Part shown: positions 3,319 through 56,613 of the stretch, one piece after another
Numbering within the stretch: the stretch's first letter is position 1
How the letters are laid out: each line of letters begins with the position of its first letter
Assembly (NCBI RefSeq): GCF_013372225.1
Contig: NZ_CP053832.1
Coordinates: 1,116,001-1,180,000 of the forward strand
Length of the DNA: 64,000 nucleotides
Direction of reading: 5' to 3'
Source: Campylobacter ureolyticus
Lineage (GTDB): Bacteria; Campylobacterota; Campylobacteria; Campylobacterales; Campylobacteraceae
Made by a program: the position numbers and the translations under genes
The notes under the pieces: generated by a model
Told to the model about the DNA's origin: nothing
What the model saw: the letters and a program-made list of their open reading frames with translations, nothing else
The model's database searches: none

Positions 3319-4968
3319 TTAAATCTTATCAATGCCAAATGTCTTAGCGATTTTATTATATTCAAATTTAAAATTATCAACAAATTCATCAACCACTTCT
3401 TTATTCTCTTTTATCCAGTAATCCAAAAGAGCTTCTCCAAAAATTTCTTTATACTCATTAAACCACTCTTTATATATTTCTAATTCATTTTTTTCTTTGT
3501 GGCCAGATTTTAAATTTTCATAGTTTACATGAACACTCCTATAAACTATATTATCATCTACATTGTCTGAATAAAACTTATGATCCTCTTCTAAAGATAA
3601 CACATACTTACCCAAGATTTTTTCTACAGGTTCACTTCCTGGTAAAGTTAATATTGTTCTTTTATATTTTTGTTTTTTATCAAATGTAAAAAAGCTATCT
3701 TTTTTTAAAATATTATGAAGCTGGTGTTTGCTCTCATCTCTTTTTACATCTGGGTCTAATATTACTAGCGCATCTTTAAATATATTACTTGAAACTGCTA
3801 ATTTTACAATATCAACAAAGCCAAATTCCCCATCTAAAAAATTTAAATCAGATTTTATTTTTGTATTTTTTAGTATACCTTTTAAAAACCACCTTGAAAC
3901 ATCATCCTCCATAAAAACATTTATTTCCTTATTAATAATTCTGTTTTTGTATTTAACCATTAAATCAGCATATATACCTGACATAGTAGGATTTTTTATT
4001 ATCTCAATTTTTCCTATTGCATTTCTTAAGTACTGTATAATGCAGTAATTATTTTGTTCATTTAATTCTTTTTTGCATATGTGCTCCATCAAGCTAAGAC
4101 TATGTGTAGTAAAAACTATTTGTAAATCAAGTTCTTTAGATTTTTTATATAAAAATTCAAAAAGTCTGTTTTGAGCAGCTGGATGAAGAGTTGCATCTAT
4201 CTCATCTATTAAAAGTATTCCACCATGATAACAATCTTTTTGATTGTCTTTTAGTCTCTGAAATGAAAACACTGCAGCCAAAATTTGACCCAAATTATCC
4301 TGTCCAGAAGAGTTGGCCAAAGAGCCATATTGCTCAGTTATAATTCCTACACCCTTTTTTCGTTTTATTGAGTTAGGCTGAATAAATTCAGCCTTACCAC
4401 TTACACCATCTAAAGTAAAAATATAATTATACTCTTGAATTATCATGTTTTTATAGCTATTTTCTTTTATTGTTTTTTGCTCTACAGCATCAGCCTCTCC
4501 AAATGGAAAAAGCCTAGAAAGTCCTAAATAATATACTGGCCAAGATATTTTCTTTTCATCTTTTTTATTTTCATCTTTTATTGGAATTAACCTATATCTA
4601 AAATTTGCTTCATCTAGTTTTTGAGTTGTGGCTCTAAAACTCAACTCACTAAGATACCCATCTAATATATTTCCTTTTTCATCTCTTGGCAAATCATCAA
4701 AAAATATAGTGCACTTACGCCCTGAGCTATCTGCAATCTTATCATATTTTATAATATCTGAATAATCTCCTCTAAAAGCATCTCCATTAAGCAATTCTCC
4801 ATCTTTTTTCTTAATTTCAGCACAATTACTAAGCATAGCTAGTATAGTTGATTTGCCTATACCATTGTGCCCAGATATACAAGTTAAATTTGTTCCAAGC
4901 TCTATTTCATATACCTCATCTTTTTTAGAAAAAGCTCTAAAATTTTTAATTTTAATCTTTTTTATATA
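3319..4968 (-). CDS. AAA (SMC/OLD-like) ATPase with TOPRIM-like C-terminal region
   Basis: Numbered from an upstream in-frame TTG, the N-terminus IKKIKIKNFRAFS is followed by Walker A GHNGIGKST (39-47), an ABC-type signature SSGQDNLGQ (226-234), Walker B ILLIDEID (257-264) and an H-loop THS (294-296). The last 200 residues contain FMEDD (358-362) and LDPD (410-413), the E...DxD spacing expected of an OLD-type TOPRIM nuclease; the usual Gly after the first Glu is absent. I place the start at ATG 4968 because the TTG at 4986 overlaps the AAGG ribosome binding site. Overall length about 549 aa. OLD-like nucleases are anti-phage effectors, and the adjacent methylase suggests a module. Nuclease activity is inferred. 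Confidence 0.75.
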   Translation of the reverse strand, partial: YIKKIKIKNFRAFSKKDEVYEIELGTNLTCISGHNGIGKSTILAMLSNCAEIKKKDGELLNGDAFRGDYSDIIKYDKIADSSGRKCTIFFDDLPRDEKGNILDGYLSELSFRATTQKLDEANFRYRLIPIKDENKKDEKKISWPVYYLGLSRLFPFGEADAVEQKTIKENSYKNMIIQEYNYIFTLDGVSGKAEFIQPNSIKRKKGVGIITEQYGSLANSSGQDNLGQILAAVFSFQRLKDNQKDCYHGGILLIDEIDATLHPAAQNRLFEFLYKKSKELDLQIVFTTHSLSLMEHICKKELNEQNNYCIIQYLRNAIGKIEIIKNPTMSGIYADLMVKYKNRIINKEINVFMEDDVSRWFLKGILKNTKIKSDLNFLDGEFGFVDIVKLAVSSNIFKDALVILDPDVKRDESKHQLHNILKKDSFFTFDKKQKYKRTILTLPGSEPVEKILGKYVLSLEEDHKFYSDNVDDNIVYRSVHVNYENLKSGHKEKNELEIYKEWFNEYKEIFGEALLDYWIKENKEVVDEFVDNFKFEYNKIAKTFGIDKI

Positions 4969-5067
4969 CATAACAAACCTTATCAATGCTTTTATTTGTC
5001 TTTAACACACTATTTAAAAGTATATTGTCTATAATTCGACCCTTTTACACCATACTTTTATAACTTT

Positions 5068-5399
5068 TTATTTTTTAAGCTTTTTAACCTCATCCATATA
5101 GCTTCTTTGCTTTAATTCTTTAAACTTCTCATATTCGATATCTGCTTTTTTAAATTTTCCCTTTTACCCTCGTTTTGAACTATTAGGAAATTCCTAATAG
5201 TTGAATTATCAAGTTCATTGTCATTTAGGATATTTTTTATATGCTCGTTTATAGTCGACACACTCACGCCAAAAATTTCAGCTATTTGCTTTTGACTTAG
5301 CCATAAGGTTTCATTGGCTTCATCTAATAAAACTTGGATGTTTGTGTTGTTATTACCATCATTCCAGATAATAAAGTTTTTTTTGGTTGTATCTATCAT
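5068..5399 (-). pseudogene. Remnant of a RhuM-family gene
   Basis: Residues 1-95 match my memory of the RhuM N-terminus (ETLWLSQKQIAEIFGVSVSTINEHI), a DNA-binding-like domain of about 330-aa accessory proteins. The frame ends early after a stretch of AAAAAA. In the next frame the short segment DIEYEKFKELKQRSY looks like the C-terminal tail of the same family. The middle of the gene is therefore deleted and the join is out of frame. Confidence 0.6.
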
Positions 5400-5468: not shown

Positions 5469-5774
5469 TTATCTCATAACCGAATTGTTTTTACCTGATA
5501 TTATTATGTTTTGAGAACCATCTACATTTATATTTATTTGTATCACAGCTCCATCTCTTAAAGACTGCAAGAAATTTTCATTTGAAAATACAGCGAGCAT
5601 CCCATCTGCTACGCCCTCACTTATTCTACTTATTTCCTCGTTTCTTACCGCCTCATAAATTCTTTGATTTTCTTTTTTAGTTCGCGCTATGCCTATTAGC
5701 AATATGACACCAAGCAAAACGACAAACAAAATTAAAGTACTAAATTTATCAAAAAACTCTATAAGCTCACTCAT
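5469..5774 (-). CDS. Small single-pass membrane protein with a C-terminal Gly/Asn motif
   Basis: A 101-aa protein: one strong membrane helix at about 12-30, a helical charged middle (31-75) and a C-terminal tail at 82-101 reading IN.DGSQNI..SGKNNSV. The same motif occurs, without gaps, in the two proteins encoded just upstream. The start codon overlaps the previous stop (ATGA), so the three genes form one operon. I do not know the family. The motif resembles short prion-like or amyloid-forming signalling motifs and may let this membrane protein bind its cytosolic partners. Confidence 0.7.
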   Translation of the reverse strand: MSELIEFFDKFSTLILFVVLLGVILLIGIARTKKENQRIYEAVRNEEISRISEGVADGMLAVFSNENFLQSLRDGAVIQININVDGSQNIIISGKNNSVMR

Positions 5775-6394
5775 CGTTTATCCTTTAAATGCTCTAATAT
5801 TGATAAAAATATTTTTAAAGCTTGATTTGCCTCTTCCATACCCATATCCTTTAAGGTTTCTATAATTTGATGAAATTTTTCTCTATTATCATTTTTGATT
5901 GTATTATTATCACCTGAAAAGGCGATATTATTATTGCCTTTTACGCTTACATTGCCACTATTCATATTTTCAATTGCTACATATTGTTCTATTTCGCTTT
6001 CTTGATTATCTCTTGGATCAAACTCCCCATATGCATAAGGGGATAATATATAATTTTGCTTAATCGGCTTTTTAATATATGGAAATTTTATGATGTCTTT
6101 ATAATCTTCTAATTCAGCATCTCTCAAAATATCATCAGGCTCAAAGAAAAAGCCAAGTTCTATAAAATCAAAACTGCCATCAAATTTATCTGCTACATTA
6201 TATATATGCTTAAACGGAACTTTGTTAGTAAGTATCCAATTATCGATAGTTTTTAACTTTATACCCAATTTTTTTGCAAGTCCTTTTTTGTCTTTGACTT
6301 TAGCCACAACACACATTCTACAAACGATATTTTTTGCGTCTTGTCTATCTTTTAAATTTCTTAATGACGATGGTTTTCTTCGTGGATTTATCAT
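5771..6394 (-). CDS. CI-like helix-turn-helix protein with a Gly/Asn motif
   Basis: The 207-aa product has an N-terminal repressor-type HTH (KKGLAKKLGIKLKTIDNWI, about 37-55), as in phage CI/Phage_CI_repr proteins, a middle region with no recognised peptidase dyad, and the motif VSVKGNNNIAFSGDNNTI at 149-166, followed by a helical tail. The motif is shared with the proteins on either side. It sits 4 nt from the preceding repressor-like gene. Likely a transcription regulator of the prophage or a sensor in the operon. It lacks an obvious LexA-type C-terminal domain. Confidence 0.7.
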   Translation of the reverse strand: MINPRRKPSSLRNLKDRQDAKNIVCRMCVVAKVKDKKGLAKKLGIKLKTIDNWILTNKVPFKHIYNVADKFDGSFDFIELGFFFEPDDILRDAELEDYKDIIKFPYIKKPIKQNYILSPYAYGEFDPRDNQESEIEQYVAIENMNSGNVSVKGNNNIAFSGDNNTIKNDNREKFHQIIETLKDMGMEEANQALKIFLSILEHLKDKR

Positions 6395-6398
6395 AGCC

Positions 6399-6803
6399 TT
6401 ACTCTTTTGAAATTTTTTCTATTTGTTTGAGTTTTTCGATGATTGGATCAAGCAACTTATCTAAGTTTTTATTGCCATATTTCTTATAAAGTGCTAAAAA
6501 TTCATTCACTTTTGGGGAATATACATTTGTTATATCAGCATTTTTACCAAATACGGTGTTACCATCCCCGCTAAATGCCAAGTTATTATCACCAGTTACT
6601 TTTACAGAACCGTTTAACAATGTATCCATACTCACTCCCAATTTTTCTGAAAATTCATATAATCTACCTTTTGGAATTTCTCCTCTTGTTTGCCAGGTAT
6701 TAAAAGTTCTATATGGAACTTCCAAAATTTCAGCTAATTCTTTTATAGTATTAGCATTTGTTAAATTCTTTAGAAATGCTATATTCTCGTCAAAACTCGT
6801 CAT
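6399..6803 (-). CDS. CI-like helix-turn-helix repressor with a Gly/Asn motif
   Basis: A 134-aa protein with an N-terminal HTH (TIKELAEILEVPYRTFNTWQTRG, about 19-41) of the phage CI type, the motif VKVTGDNNLAFSGDGNTVFG at 67-86 and a helical C-terminus. It is the first gene of the leftward operon and is transcribed divergently from the early genes. The intergenic palindrome near 6,850 is a natural operator for it. Small size and the absence of a cleavage domain suggest repressor control by oligomerisation and not by RecA-stimulated cleavage. Confidence 0.75.
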   Translation of the reverse strand: MTSFDENIAFLKNLTNANTIKELAEILEVPYRTFNTWQTRGEIPKGRLYEFSEKLGVSMDTLLNGSVKVTGDNNLAFSGDGNTVFGKNADITNVYSPKVNEFLALYKKYGNKNLDKLLDPIIEKLKQIEKISKE

Positions 6804-6825: not shown

Positions 6826-6869
6826 TACTTCAAAATACCCTTGACAAATTACTTCATTTGAAGTATAAT
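6826..6869 (+). promoter_or_regulatory. Consensus promoter with palindromic operator between the divergent prophage operons
   Basis: TTGACA at 6,841-6,846 and TATAAT at 6,864-6,869 are separated by 17 bp, a perfect sigma-70-type promoter reading right. Between the boxes lies the palindrome TACTTC-ATTT-GAAGTA (6,850-6,865), and a second half-site TACTTC at 6,826-6,831. A bound repressor would cover the promoter, so this looks like the lysogeny switch operator. Confidence 0.8.
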
Positions 6870-10956: not shown

Positions 10957-12119
10957 TCAAAACCCTAAAAACTCACACCACCACTCTAACAATCTTTTAT
11001 GCTCATCAGAGTTAAAATCTCTAAAATAGGCTTTATCCACTTCACTACCACGAGTATGCAGTAATACCTCATCGATTATTCTTTTTTCAAATTTACCTCT
11101 TTTTATGCCATTAATTGTTTCAGTTTCTCTTATAGCAAATGTAGCAAGTGTGCCACGAAAGCCATGAGCGTGTAAGTCAGTAATACCTAGTTTTTTCATA
11201 TTTGTCATTAAAGTCATATCGCTAACAGCATAACCACTTTTTAAAGAGCGTGTTTTTGACTTAAAAACTATACCCTCATTGCCAGTTAGTTTTTTTTGAT
11301 ATTCTAAAATTTCTTTAGCTTTTTTTGGTAGTGGCAATCTTGCGTTTATCTTTGTTTTGTTATCACTCTCACCAAAATATACAAAATTCTCATCTACCCT
11401 ATCCCATGTAAGTTCTCTTATTTGGTGTGGTCTTTGAGCCATTATTAAATTAAATAAAAAGATATTTTTAATGGTTTCATCAATGTTTGAGTTCATAACT
11501 GTTTTAATTATTTCTAAAAGTCTTTTTTTTTGCTTGTTATGATTTTTCTATGACCGGTTTTAGGCTTTGGAAAAAGTAAGGTTACATCTTCTAATATTTC
11601 ATAAATAAAACTAATATCATTAATTGCCCCTTTATTTTTGGCAATTTTTAGCATATCTCTATAAATTGCTAATGCTCTTTGAGAAATCTCTAAATTTGCA
11701 CCATTTAATGCATTTAATAACTCATCTTTATTTACTTCACTTATAAGCTTATTTCCTATTTTATCTAGTATCCACTTACTTACCCTATTTTTATATTTTC
11801 TTCTTTTGTTTTGATTTTCTTTTGTATTTGGATACCTTAGATCTAAAAGCTCACTAAATAAATCATTTATTTTCATTTGCCTTGATAGACTGCTTTGTTT
11901 TTCATAGTTTGTTGCTAATTCTCTAGCCTCAGCTAAGCTCAGCTCATTGAAGTTTCCTAAGGTTGCATACCCTGTTTTTATTCTCTTTTTGTATAACCTG
12001 GTTCCAGTGCTAAAACAGACTAGATATAAACTGCAATTACTATCTATACTAAAAGCTTTGAATTTCTTATCATTAGGGCATTTAAGCTTTTTAACTTGAG
12101 TGAATGTTAGAGTTGCCAT
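10957..12119 (-). pseudogene. int: Tyrosine integrase, split by a frameshift at an A9 tract
   Basis: Two frames together give about 390 aa, the normal size of this integrase class. The 201-aa N-part has a beta-rich arm-binding start and a core-binding helical domain. The 179-aa C-part has the catalytic set: Arg in AQRPHQIREL, HAHGFRGT (H-x-x-R), LLHTRG and Tyr in DKAYFR. The frames meet at nine A residues (complement of 11,523-11,531). One extra A, or a -1 ribosomal slip there, restores a continuous protein through RLLEIIKTV into the second part. The gene is therefore either dead or uses slippage. It faces away from tRNA-Asn, its probable target. Confidence 0.8.
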
Positions 12120-30305: not shown

Positions 30306-31165
30306 TTAAGATACTATAAAATTACATTGTGCTTTTTCTATATCTATATTAATTTTATCAAAGAAATATCTTTTTATTTCCATATTATCACTTTCTTTTG
30401 GCAAAAAATTTATGATGTTTTTCTCTGTTTTTATTAAATAACTAGTGTAAATTTTAAAACCAATTTTTTTATTTAAAAGAATAAAAACTACAAATTTACC
30501 AACTAAAAATACCGCAATAATCCATCCATAAACAAATAAAAATATACTGAAATCAAAAATTATCATTGTAATACCAACTAAAAGTATAGCCACAATTAAA
30601 AATTTTTTAGAGACAAGTTTTTGAGTTTGAAAATTTTCATTACAAATAGCAGTTTTATAAACTCCAATTATGTCGCTCAAATTTATTTCAAGTGCTGTAT
30701 CGCTTCCTTTTCTATAGACAATTTTTGAATCATAAAAAATAATAGTTTTATATGGGTGTTTAAGTAACTCTAAAAAAATTTCTAAAGTAATAAACATAAA
30801 AATAATATTTTTTGGTATAAAAAAACACTTATGCCGTTAGAAATAAAATTAACAAACAACAAAACTGGAATTGTTACTGCGAAAAAGGCTGTTTCGTGCA
30901 TATTGTAATCTCTTATAATTAACGGTTCTTTATCATAATCTCTTTTTTTAGGTTTTGCTTTATTGGATAAATTTTGAGAATTGTCTAAATTTGAGTCATT
31001 GTTTAAATTTGAATTATTCAAATTTGAATTATTCAAATTTAAATCATCTTCTAAATTTTTATTAGAATTTTCTTTATTATCAGAGTTATTGCCTAAATTC
31101 ACTCTATTTTTAGGTCTATTGTTTCTTAAATATTCTCTAAGTTTTTCTCTTTTATCATCACTCAA
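30306..31165 (-). pseudogene. TTG-start membrane protein family, member A, frameshifted at T7
   Basis: The N-part (127 aa, TTG at 31,165) begins SDDKREKLREYLRNN, has a low-complexity Asn/Leu/Ser linker and KRDYDKEPLII, and then a membrane segment. The frame is lost at GTTTTTTTATACC; with an eighth T it continues as VFFIPKNIIF into the 163-aa C-part, which has two membrane helices, a YRKGSDTALEINLSDIIG segment and the family ending IKRYFFDKINIDI. The gene is thus one base short of a full member. It could be inactive or in an off state. Confidence 0.75.
31005..31040. repeat. 15-bp tandem repeat in the linker of member A
   Basis: The unit AAATTTGAATTATTC is present in two full copies (31,005-31,034) and part of a third. 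It encodes repeats of Ser-Asn-Leu-Asn-Asn and explains why the linker differs in length from members B and C. Confidence 0.75.
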
Positions 31166-31482
31166 ATTTTAGCCTTTGCTGTTTTTATAAAAACGATGTA
31201 TTCTAGTCTTTTAAAACTTAAAATATTATTTGAATTTTTTATTAATATAAATTTAGCATAGTGGCTAATTTAGGATTATCTACTATAACTTATTGTAATT
31301 AAAAACTTTTATTTATGGTAAAGATTTAATATAAAAAAGAGTGTTTAGTTTATCATTATAAGAGTTTAAAGATGATTTTAAATTTAATTTTATATATTTT
31401 TCTGCCTTATCAAGCTTCTCTTTAGCTTTTATTTGCCTATCTAATAAATTCATAATTATCCCCTTTAAATAAAATTTTATTA

Positions 31483-32376
31483 TTAAAATATGTTATAACT
31501 TTTTGGTAAATTGTCTATATCAATATTTTTTTGCAAAAAATATTGTTTTACCTCTTTATAAATTTCATAATTATAAAGATAAATTATATAATACCGTTTA
31601 GCAAAAGAATTGTTATAGCTTAGCAAAAAAGTTGGTTTATAAATTTGTATAAATGGAAATATTTTAAAGCCATTTACTCTTTTGTTTATAAATAGATAGA
31701 TAAAAAATTTGATAAATAAATTTGAAAAATAAAAAGATATCACAATAAAAAATACAAAACCTTTACTAATAATTATAAGTACAACTAACGAAGAATATAT
31801 TATAATATCAGCAATATCAAAATTTGAATTTTTTGAATAATTTGTAGAAAATGGTAAAATCAACTCGCTAGCCACAATCTTGCTTTGCTTTTTTAATTTG
31901 CCATAATCATAAAATTCAATATATTTATTGCAAAATTTGATTTTATGATTTGAAAAATATTGTTTTTGACAAATAGTTACGACAAAAATATATCCAACTA
32001 ACAAAAACAATGCAGCTATATACCCATCAAAATCTATAACCGACCCTTTATATAAATCTTTGCAAAAACAAGAGATAATTAAAGATAAAATCAAAGACGC
32101 CATAAACATAATAAGAACAAAAAACTCTTCATAGCTTTGTATTATCAGCGGTTCTTTATCATAATCTCTTTTATTTAAGTTTGTTTTATTATCTGAAATT
32201 TGAGAATTGTCCAAATCTGAGTTATTATTTAAATTCAAATTATCTGAGTTTAAATCATCTTCTAAATTTTTATTAGATTTTTCTTTATTATCAGAGTTAT
32301 TGCCTAAATTTATTCTATTCTTAGGTCGATTATTTCTTAAATATTCTCTAAGTTTTTCTCTTTTATCATCACTCAA
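31483..32376 (-). CDS. TTG-start membrane protein family, member B (intact)
   Basis: 297 aa from TTG 32,376, with AAGGC upstream. N-terminus SDDKREKLREYLRNNRPKN, an Asn/Asp/Ser-rich linker (25-68), then NKRDYDKEPLII, a pair of membrane helices, a segment KYIEFYDYGKLKKQSKIV like a bacterial PH-type fold, another membrane pair and the C-terminal VKQYFLQKNIDID. The first 80 codons are nearly the same at DNA level as those of member C, 24 kb away, while the rest differs. Function unknown; probably an inner-membrane signalling or surface-stress protein. Confidence 0.75.
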   Translation of the reverse strand: MSDDKREKLREYLRNNRPKNRINLGNNSDNKEKSNKNLEDDLNSDNLNLNNNSDLDNSQISDNKTNLNKRDYDKEPLIIQSYEEFFVLIMFMASLILSLIISCFCKDLYKGSVIDFDGYIAALFLLVGYIFVVTICQKQYFSNHKIKFCNKYIEFYDYGKLKKQSKIVASELILPFSTNYSKNSNFDIADIIIYSSLVVLIIISKGFVFFIVISFYFSNLFIKFFIYLFINKRVNGFKIFPFIQIYKPTFLLSYNNSFAKRYYIIYLYNYEIYKEVKQYFLQKNIDIDNLPKSYNIF

Positions 32377-55752: not shown

Positions 55753-56613
55753 TCATGGTTTACTCTTTAAATTAAGTTTTTTATCCAAGTCAATAAGAAT
55801 AATGTCTAAAAAATATTTTCTTATTGCTAAATATTCATCAAGACTCATAACCAATATACTAGTTTTGTTTTCTCCATCGTCTACAACAATATTGTCAAAA
55901 ATCAAATCAGGTATGTCTTTATCTCTTTTTAAATGCATCAATATACTAGGTAGAAAAAATAAAGAGATTATACCAATAAAAATTAAGATAAATAAATATA
56001 AATTTTCTATAAAAATTTGGATAAAAATCAAAGAAAAGCAAAACAAAACTATAAAAAAAGGTATATTTTGCTTAAAGTTTCCTAAATTATCGTTGTAAAA
56101 TCCATAGAACATTTGTACCGTTTTTTTAATTTTAAGTTTGCTTGATATTTTTATCTCTTTTTGAAATGATTCTTTATAACATACTATTTTATCATTTTTA
56201 AATTCTGTTATTTTGCCTTTATTTGGGTCTGTTGCAAGTCTACTAGCAAGAATAATGACAGCAAAAAAATTAAATATTTTTCTATCCGTAGGAATATCAA
56301 CAATAAATAAACTAATAAAAACTAATACTAAAAAACAAAACCCACGAAAACTAGAAACATCTGGATTGTGATTTTTTATAAAAAGCGGTTCTTTATCATA
56401 ATCTCTTTTATTTGAATTTGTTTTATTGTTTGAAATTTGAAAATTGTCCAAATCTGAGTTATTATTTAAATTCAAATTATCTGAGTTTAAATCATTTTCT
56501 AAATTCTTATTAGAATTTTCTTTATTATTAGAGTTATTACCTAAATTTATTTTACTTTTAGGTTTATTATTTCTAAGATACTCTCTAAGTTTTTCTCTTT
56601 TATCATCATCCAA
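55753..56613 (-). CDS. TTG-start membrane protein family, member C (intact)
   Basis: 286 aa from TTG 56,613. N-terminus DDDKREKLREYLRNNKPKS, Asn-rich linker and NKRDYDKEPLFI match member B almost base for base, then a different membrane domain with two pairs of helices, a soluble PH-like stretch NDKIVCYKESFQKEIKIS and a tail IRKYFLDIILIDLDKK typical of the family. The transposon inserted about 180 bp upstream of its start, so its promoter may be affected. Confidence 0.75.
   Translation of the reverse strand: MDDDKREKLREYLRNNKPKSKINLGNNSNNKENSNKNLENDLNSDNLNLNNNSDLDNFQISNNKTNSNKRDYDKEPLFIKNHNPDVSSFRGFCFLVLVFISLFIVDIPTDRKIFNFFAVIILASRLATDPNKGKITEFKNDKIVCYKESFQKEIKISSKLKIKKTVQMFYGFYNDNLGNFKQNIPFFIVLFCFSLIFIQIFIENLYLFILIFIGIISLFFLPSILMHLKRDKDIPDLIFDNIVVDDGENKTSILVMSLDEYLAIRKYFLDIILIDLDKKLNLKSKP

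Follow-up and report, generated by a model that had tools for sequence, protein, structure and literature searches.

Within the window, a 64,000-nucleotide stretch of the Campylobacter ureolyticus genome, a minus-strand operon encodes three proteins, here called P1, P2 and P3, in consecutive genes that are separated by 4 bases (P1/P2) or overlap by 4 bases (P2/P3). P1 (positions 6399..6803, 134 residues) is a short CI-like repressor composed of an HTH domain (residues 12-65, 6609..6770, delimited by Pfam and AF2), a Gly/Asn-rich motif and a helical C-terminal tail. It matches Pfam Phage_CI_repr (E 1e-7) and, along its full length, the 'transcriptional repressor' family phrog_27605 (E 2e-34), and it is 48% identical to the 'repressor protein' of CJIE4. 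The C-terminal peptidase/oligomerisation domain Peptidase_S24 is absent from P1 by Pfam search and is found in the relatives at loci L006, L009 and L110. P2 (5771..6394, 207 residues) is a second CI-like HTH protein with motif and C-terminal tail, matched by Phage_CI_repr (E 7e-5) and, over residues 137-204, by phrog_27605. P3 (5469..5774, 101 residues) belongs to a family of its own, phrog_22297 (E 5e-25), distinct from that of P1 and P2. PHROG, hydropathy and AF2 predict a single-pass inner-membrane protein with a cytosolic helix and the motif at its C-terminus. Hydropathy defines its transmembrane segment (residues 11-29, 5688..5744), with positive charge on the C-terminal side, and the charge around the segment places the motif on the predicted cytosolic side, as it does for the GGNNQIG membrane partner described below.

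Divergent from P1, on the plus strand, lies a sigma-70-like promoter, TTGACA-17-TATAAT (6841..6869, 12 of 12 matches), presumed to be the early lytic one. Its spacer holds a palindrome, TACTTCA-NN-TGAAGTA (6850..6865), presumed from sequence only to be the operator, and an extra half-site, TACTTCA, was located by sequence search between the promoter and P1 (6826..6832). Because a divergent promoter with a palindrome in its spacer adjoins P1, we place P1 as the putative immunity repressor; the locus is best explained as belonging to a Campylobacter prophage, whose lysogeny operon it forms and whose CI-like repressor is P1.

Downstream of P3, a GajA/OLD-like AAA ATPase is encoded on the minus strand (3319-4986), possibly as defence cargo of the lysogeny operon. 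Between the two lies a short HTH ORF (5112-5399, minus strand), which we take to resemble a RhuM-type protein reduced to its N-terminal part. The prophage integrase occupies two minus-strand ORFs (10957-12119), a catalytic part (10957-11496) and an arm-binding part (11514-12119), and because it is split in this way the prophage may have lost the ability to excise.

The shared motif and its probable fold

The ungapped motif [VI]xVxGxxNxxxSGxxN[TS][VI], proposed in the preliminary description, occurs exactly as described in all three proteins, and motif alignments and profiles locate it at residues 67-86 of P1 (VKVTGDNNLAFSGDGNTVFG, 6546..6605), 149-168 of P2 (5891..5950) and 82-101 of P3 (5472..5531). 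Chance sharing among the three is excluded. A profile built from the repressor motifs of other loci alone, and run against 1,064 six-frame fragments of the window, has P1, P2 and P3 as its sole matches (E 1e-4 to 3.5e-4; next-best E 2.9). In pairwise comparison with the P1 linker, P2 scores 86 and P3 scores 40 (rank 2 of 322), and the highest score among 321 background ORFs is 45. The further claim that the three proteins cannot be aligned outside the motif is correct for P3 but fails for P1 and P2, which have in common the Phage_CI_repr HTH domain and a C-terminal tail; PHROG 27605 spans the motif plus this tail in both.

For a profile of all motifs, whose presence in its source loci is expected by construction while its absence elsewhere is not, three sites were found in the 1.82-Mb host genome, every one inside P1, P2 or P3. 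In six other system-bearing genomes that were scanned, the strong matches of this profile amount to one adjacent pair and nothing more, and in four genomes of the same genus without the system it has no match below E 0.27. The preliminary description had named a common HTH linker, uncorrelated with its neighbours, as the finding that would undo its proposal. This explanation was tested and fails: in the host genome the motif occurs nowhere outside the operon, the four system-free genomes of the genus give no strong match, and the motif is correlated between neighbours. We therefore reject it.

Viral sequences seldom contain the motif either: from 2.9 million contigs, two DNA patterns retrieved six stretches in all, this prophage, a TM-motif-HhH protein without a motif-bearing neighbour, and an unrelated protein without motif context. 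The viral transmembrane proteins of L137 (3562-3903), L138 (1240-1581) and L139 (2226-2567) carry the same motif, IKVIGNNNVSIIGDNNSM, together with a ComEA-like helix-hairpin-helix, and none has a motif-bearing neighbour. Elsewhere in the window (30782-32376 and 55753-56613, minus strand), a near-identical Asn-rich N-terminus, DKREKLREYLRNN..., precedes differing membrane domains in three proteins, a further shared-tag pattern.

Structurally, the motif consists of two 8-residue units. The best solved match of its profile is the ice recrystallisation inhibition protein of Lolium perenne (3ULT, LbR_Ice_bind; E 4e-4), a left-handed beta-roll with the same coil pattern, xxGxNNxVxSGxxNxV; the motif-bearing partner at L102 matches LbR_Ice_bind at E 3e-4, below the curated cut-off. 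The plant protein stacks many tandem coils in one chain, whereas each protein here has about one (about 16-20 residues). AF2 models P1 with pLDDT 79-89 across the first 50 residues, but pLDDT drops to ~33-50 in the motif, where no more than two strands of 3 residues are predicted; P3 is modelled as a long helix (residues 2-63) with a disordered C-terminal motif. A single coil per chain would be too short to fold alone and may be completed by stacking on the coils of other chains. The likeness to amyloid signalling motifs that was suggested earlier holds in that adjacent genes have a motif in common, and beyond that it is conjectural: Pfam profiles of RHIM, HET-s, sigma and PP match neither P1, P2 and P3 nor 16 motif peptides, there is no NLR, and the nearest solved structure is a beta-roll.

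Partners of the repressor in other prophages

Searches with the repressor gathered about 20 distinct loci, in which the next gene is usually motif-bearing and the type of partner varies. The HTH and membrane protein pairs that the preliminary description proposed to look for in other prophages do exist, and so do pairs with non-membrane partners. In general, then, the master repressor of such Campylobacter prophages and the product or products encoded directly after it, in many cases a membrane protein, appear from their sequences to bear a common Gly/Asn-rich motif. The partners fall into at least six unrelated classes: three membrane families, a second HTH protein, an ORF6C antirepressor-like protein and a small 'FEVKE' domain.

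The single-pass phrog_22297 partner with a C-terminal motif occurs in the window and at L003, L004, L014, L017, L031, L035 and L058, and a second HTH protein takes the partner role in the window, L100 and L099. At L102, L091, L090, L106 and L107 the partner is of the ORF6C class and carries the motif N-terminally. Its ORF6C domain scores above the Pfam cut-off at L102 (E 6e-7) and more weakly at L090 and L106. It thus resembles ORF6C/Rha-type antirepressors, from which it differs in that the motif replaces the N-terminal half; P2 and P3 of the window have no ORF6C domain. Database matches of the ORF6C partner are only to Nitratiruptor phage antirepressors, and weak, and an order-wide search for further ORF6C partners gave weak matches only. 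A FEVKE domain and an unrelated membrane protein, each with a C-terminal GGNNQIGxxNTQNN, are the partners in L095, L096 and L098, and at L104 this motif is present in the repressor and the membrane protein only. L103 has a soluble partner with an N-terminal motif. L110 (544-1905, minus strand) is an independent locus, outside the host's family but within the same order. Its repressor is of the S24 CI type, with the motif in the linker, and is followed by the gene for a membrane protein that carries the motif at its N-terminus. At L002, L089, L097 and L088 the repressor keeps the motif and the neighbour has none. At L006 (1459-2418) the repressor forms one protein with an additional HTH and an S24 peptidase; its motif is decayed, having lost its first Gly, and it has no motif partner.

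The nearest named phages are CJIE4-1, CJIE4-2 and PC10 of C. jejuni, the only phages in which a P1/P3-type pair is known; the homologues are adjacent and annotated 'repressor' and 'hypothetical protein'. P1 has no match among plasmid records. ORF6 and ORF7 of CJIE4 are direct homologues of P1 (48%, phrog_27605) and P3 (43%, phrog_22297), and CJIE4 has no homologue of P2. iTRAQ detected both proteins in the two lysogens whose prophages encode them, and ORF6-10 take the position that an S24-type repressor module has in other CJIE4 prophages; the part of that paper dealing with ORF6 and ORF7 does not report the common motif (PMC3995785).

Pairing and exchange of motif variants

When each repressor linker was compared with its neighbours and 321 background ORFs, the neighbour ranked first of 322 in most loci. 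A motif-bearing neighbour accompanies 13 of 17 strong-motif repressors, compared with 2 of 55 HTH relatives without the motif (Fisher 3e-9), a comparison that is partly circular, as the profile includes these sequences, and that counts some related loci.

Motif variants are moreover paired within loci. Among 16 loci, none of 100,000 permutations reached the observed pairing, and after thinning 20 of 100,000 did, so that the observed value exceeds 99.98% of them. When each partner class was represented by a single locus, 346 of 20,000 permutations did so; the loci of the ORF6C class taken by themselves give a marginal signal (1,151 of 20,000). Inside the phrog_22297 membrane class pairing is no better than random, because the motif of P3 and its family is nearly invariant. 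The FEVKE domains offer the clearest instance of such pairing: those of L096 and L094 are clearly homologous (score 145) and carry different motifs, C-terminal GGNNQIGDGNTQNN in the former and N-terminal VNGNNSGNITN in the latter. Each motif matches the repressor of its locus (scores 70 and 69, respectively) and not that of the other locus (23 and 21).

In the repressors themselves, HTH and motif recombine as distinct modules. Those of L095 and L097 are 83% identical in the HTH domain and 35% in motif plus tail, whereas those of L002 and L089 are 32% identical in the HTH domain and 76% in motif plus tail. Because the recombination border falls just before the motif, operator specificity and the choice of motif and partner are exchanged separately. 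In the window and at L094, L096 and L104, identical residues of the motif have identical codons no more often than codon usage predicts, and it is therefore the protein rather than the DNA that is conserved at these loci. At L100 (2818-3800), in the repressor and second HTH genes, 16 of 17 motif codons are identical where 8 are expected, a sign that one of the neighbouring genes has recently received its motif from the other. L099 points to such copying between repressor and second HTH gene as well.

A probable docking tag and its alternatives

The motif is probably a homotypic docking tag that couples the repressor to its co-encoded partners. It would form about one coil of a beta-solenoid, two strand-turn units of 8 residues that fold poorly alone, and would stack by its edge on the corresponding coil of a second chain. 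In this way P1 could oligomerise and co-assemble with the products of the next genes, here the second DNA-binding protein P2 and the membrane anchor P3, whose motif would face the cytosol. The most likely consequence would be that the activity of the repressor is controlled. Binding to P3, or to the ORF6C antirepressor-like partner of relatives, may remove the repressor from the operator in the divergent promoter; alternatively, it may set the threshold at which the repressor lets go of the operator. The stacking, the recruitment to the membrane and the effect on lysogeny or induction are steps that we infer. The membrane partner does not simply abolish repression, because both proteins are present in stable lysogens. 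The homotypic assembly and inner-membrane link put forward in the preliminary description survive as the best reading of partner swapping, covariation, gene conversion and the rarity of the motif, with one amendment: the link to the membrane applies to P3 here, but the partner in relatives is not always a membrane protein. That the motif merely replaces S24/RecA-dependent cleavage is an idea weakened by L110, which has both the motif and an S24 domain.

The operon also invites comparison with lambda cI-rexA-rexB, in which a repressor, a DNA-binding protein and an inner-membrane protein are likewise encoded in one lysogeny operon and RexA is thought to trigger RexB (PMC12894663). By analogy, P1 and P2 could sense the DNA of a superinfecting phage, and their clustered motifs could template the motif of P3, so that membrane damage aborts the infection in a Rex-like or BELL-like exclusion. 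The parallel gene order speaks for this, as do the three unrelated membrane families among the partners and the genes downstream, the GajA/OLD-like ATPase here and an exonuclease and a KAP NTPase in CJIE4. Even so, we judge exclusion unlikely: P2 and P3 match neither RexA nor RexB in Pfam, PADLOC or NCBIfam and have no homology to them, P3 has a single transmembrane segment and not a channel-like bundle, the proteins here are joined by a common motif, and several partners (ORF6C, FEVKE, HTH) are soluble. Since ORF6C-type and other soluble partners take the same place as the membrane proteins, control of repressor availability is favoured over a Rex-like membrane effector.

Two further explanations need no coupling between the proteins. 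The motif could be only an oligomerisation element of the repressor, standing in for the CI C-terminal domain, with the copies in neighbours a by-product of duplication or gene conversion and any mixed complexes functionless. The recent copying at L100 and the status of P2 as a partial paralogue of P1 are what this would predict, but the motif sits at either terminus of unrelated partners, its residues are kept while codons have diverged, and in P3 it is nearly invariant, which makes the by-product explanation quite improbable. Alternatively, a conserved DNA element within the genes, an operator or recombination site, might be read as protein by accident. Nearly identical motif DNA would fit this at one locus, L100; in the window, L096, L104 and L094 identical residues are written in codons that differ at codon-usage frequency, and on these grounds the DNA element is rejected as hardly credible.

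The proposed docking tag has its closest counterpart in BASS1-10 and the fungal and RHIM-type amyloid pairs, where a short Gly/Asn motif of 20-40 residues likewise recurs in otherwise unrelated proteins of adjacent genes, several motif families exist and one side is often membrane-active. NLRs and their effectors are known to be encoded by adjacent genes with amyloid-type motifs in common (PMC7889193, PMC8086366), and BASS come mainly from filamentous Actinobacteria and Cyanobacteria (PMC7889193). The sensor side is an NLR there and a phage CI-like HTH repressor here, and searches with P1, P2 and P3 gave no known-family match to RHIM/HET-s, BELL, RexA or RexB; we file the system as a variant of the shared-motif gene pair and not as a member of BASS or RHIM. 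In the open-access literature, which cannot exclude one, no description of a repressor-based version was found, nor anything relevant on a link between repressors and amyloids or on membrane antirepressors.

A more far-reaching reading, which we offer tentatively, is that of a lysogeny switch built on a self-templating beta-solenoid tag of one coil, which would connect the repressor to partners that can be exchanged, be they membrane anchors, antirepressors or second regulators. This could be an NLR-free, solenoid/amyloid-type form of phage signalling, its specificity code kept by covariation and gene conversion. A 2021 review asks whether NLR-independent bacterial pathways contain signalling amyloids (PMC7889193), and the present loci supply a multi-locus candidate for one, in small and easily cloned prophage proteins. 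They also suggest an answer to how short CI-like repressors without a RecA-cleavable domain could be controlled. Finally, as repressor specificity (HTH) and partner choice (motif) appear to recombine freely, these prophages may provide a usable natural set of orthogonal protein tags.
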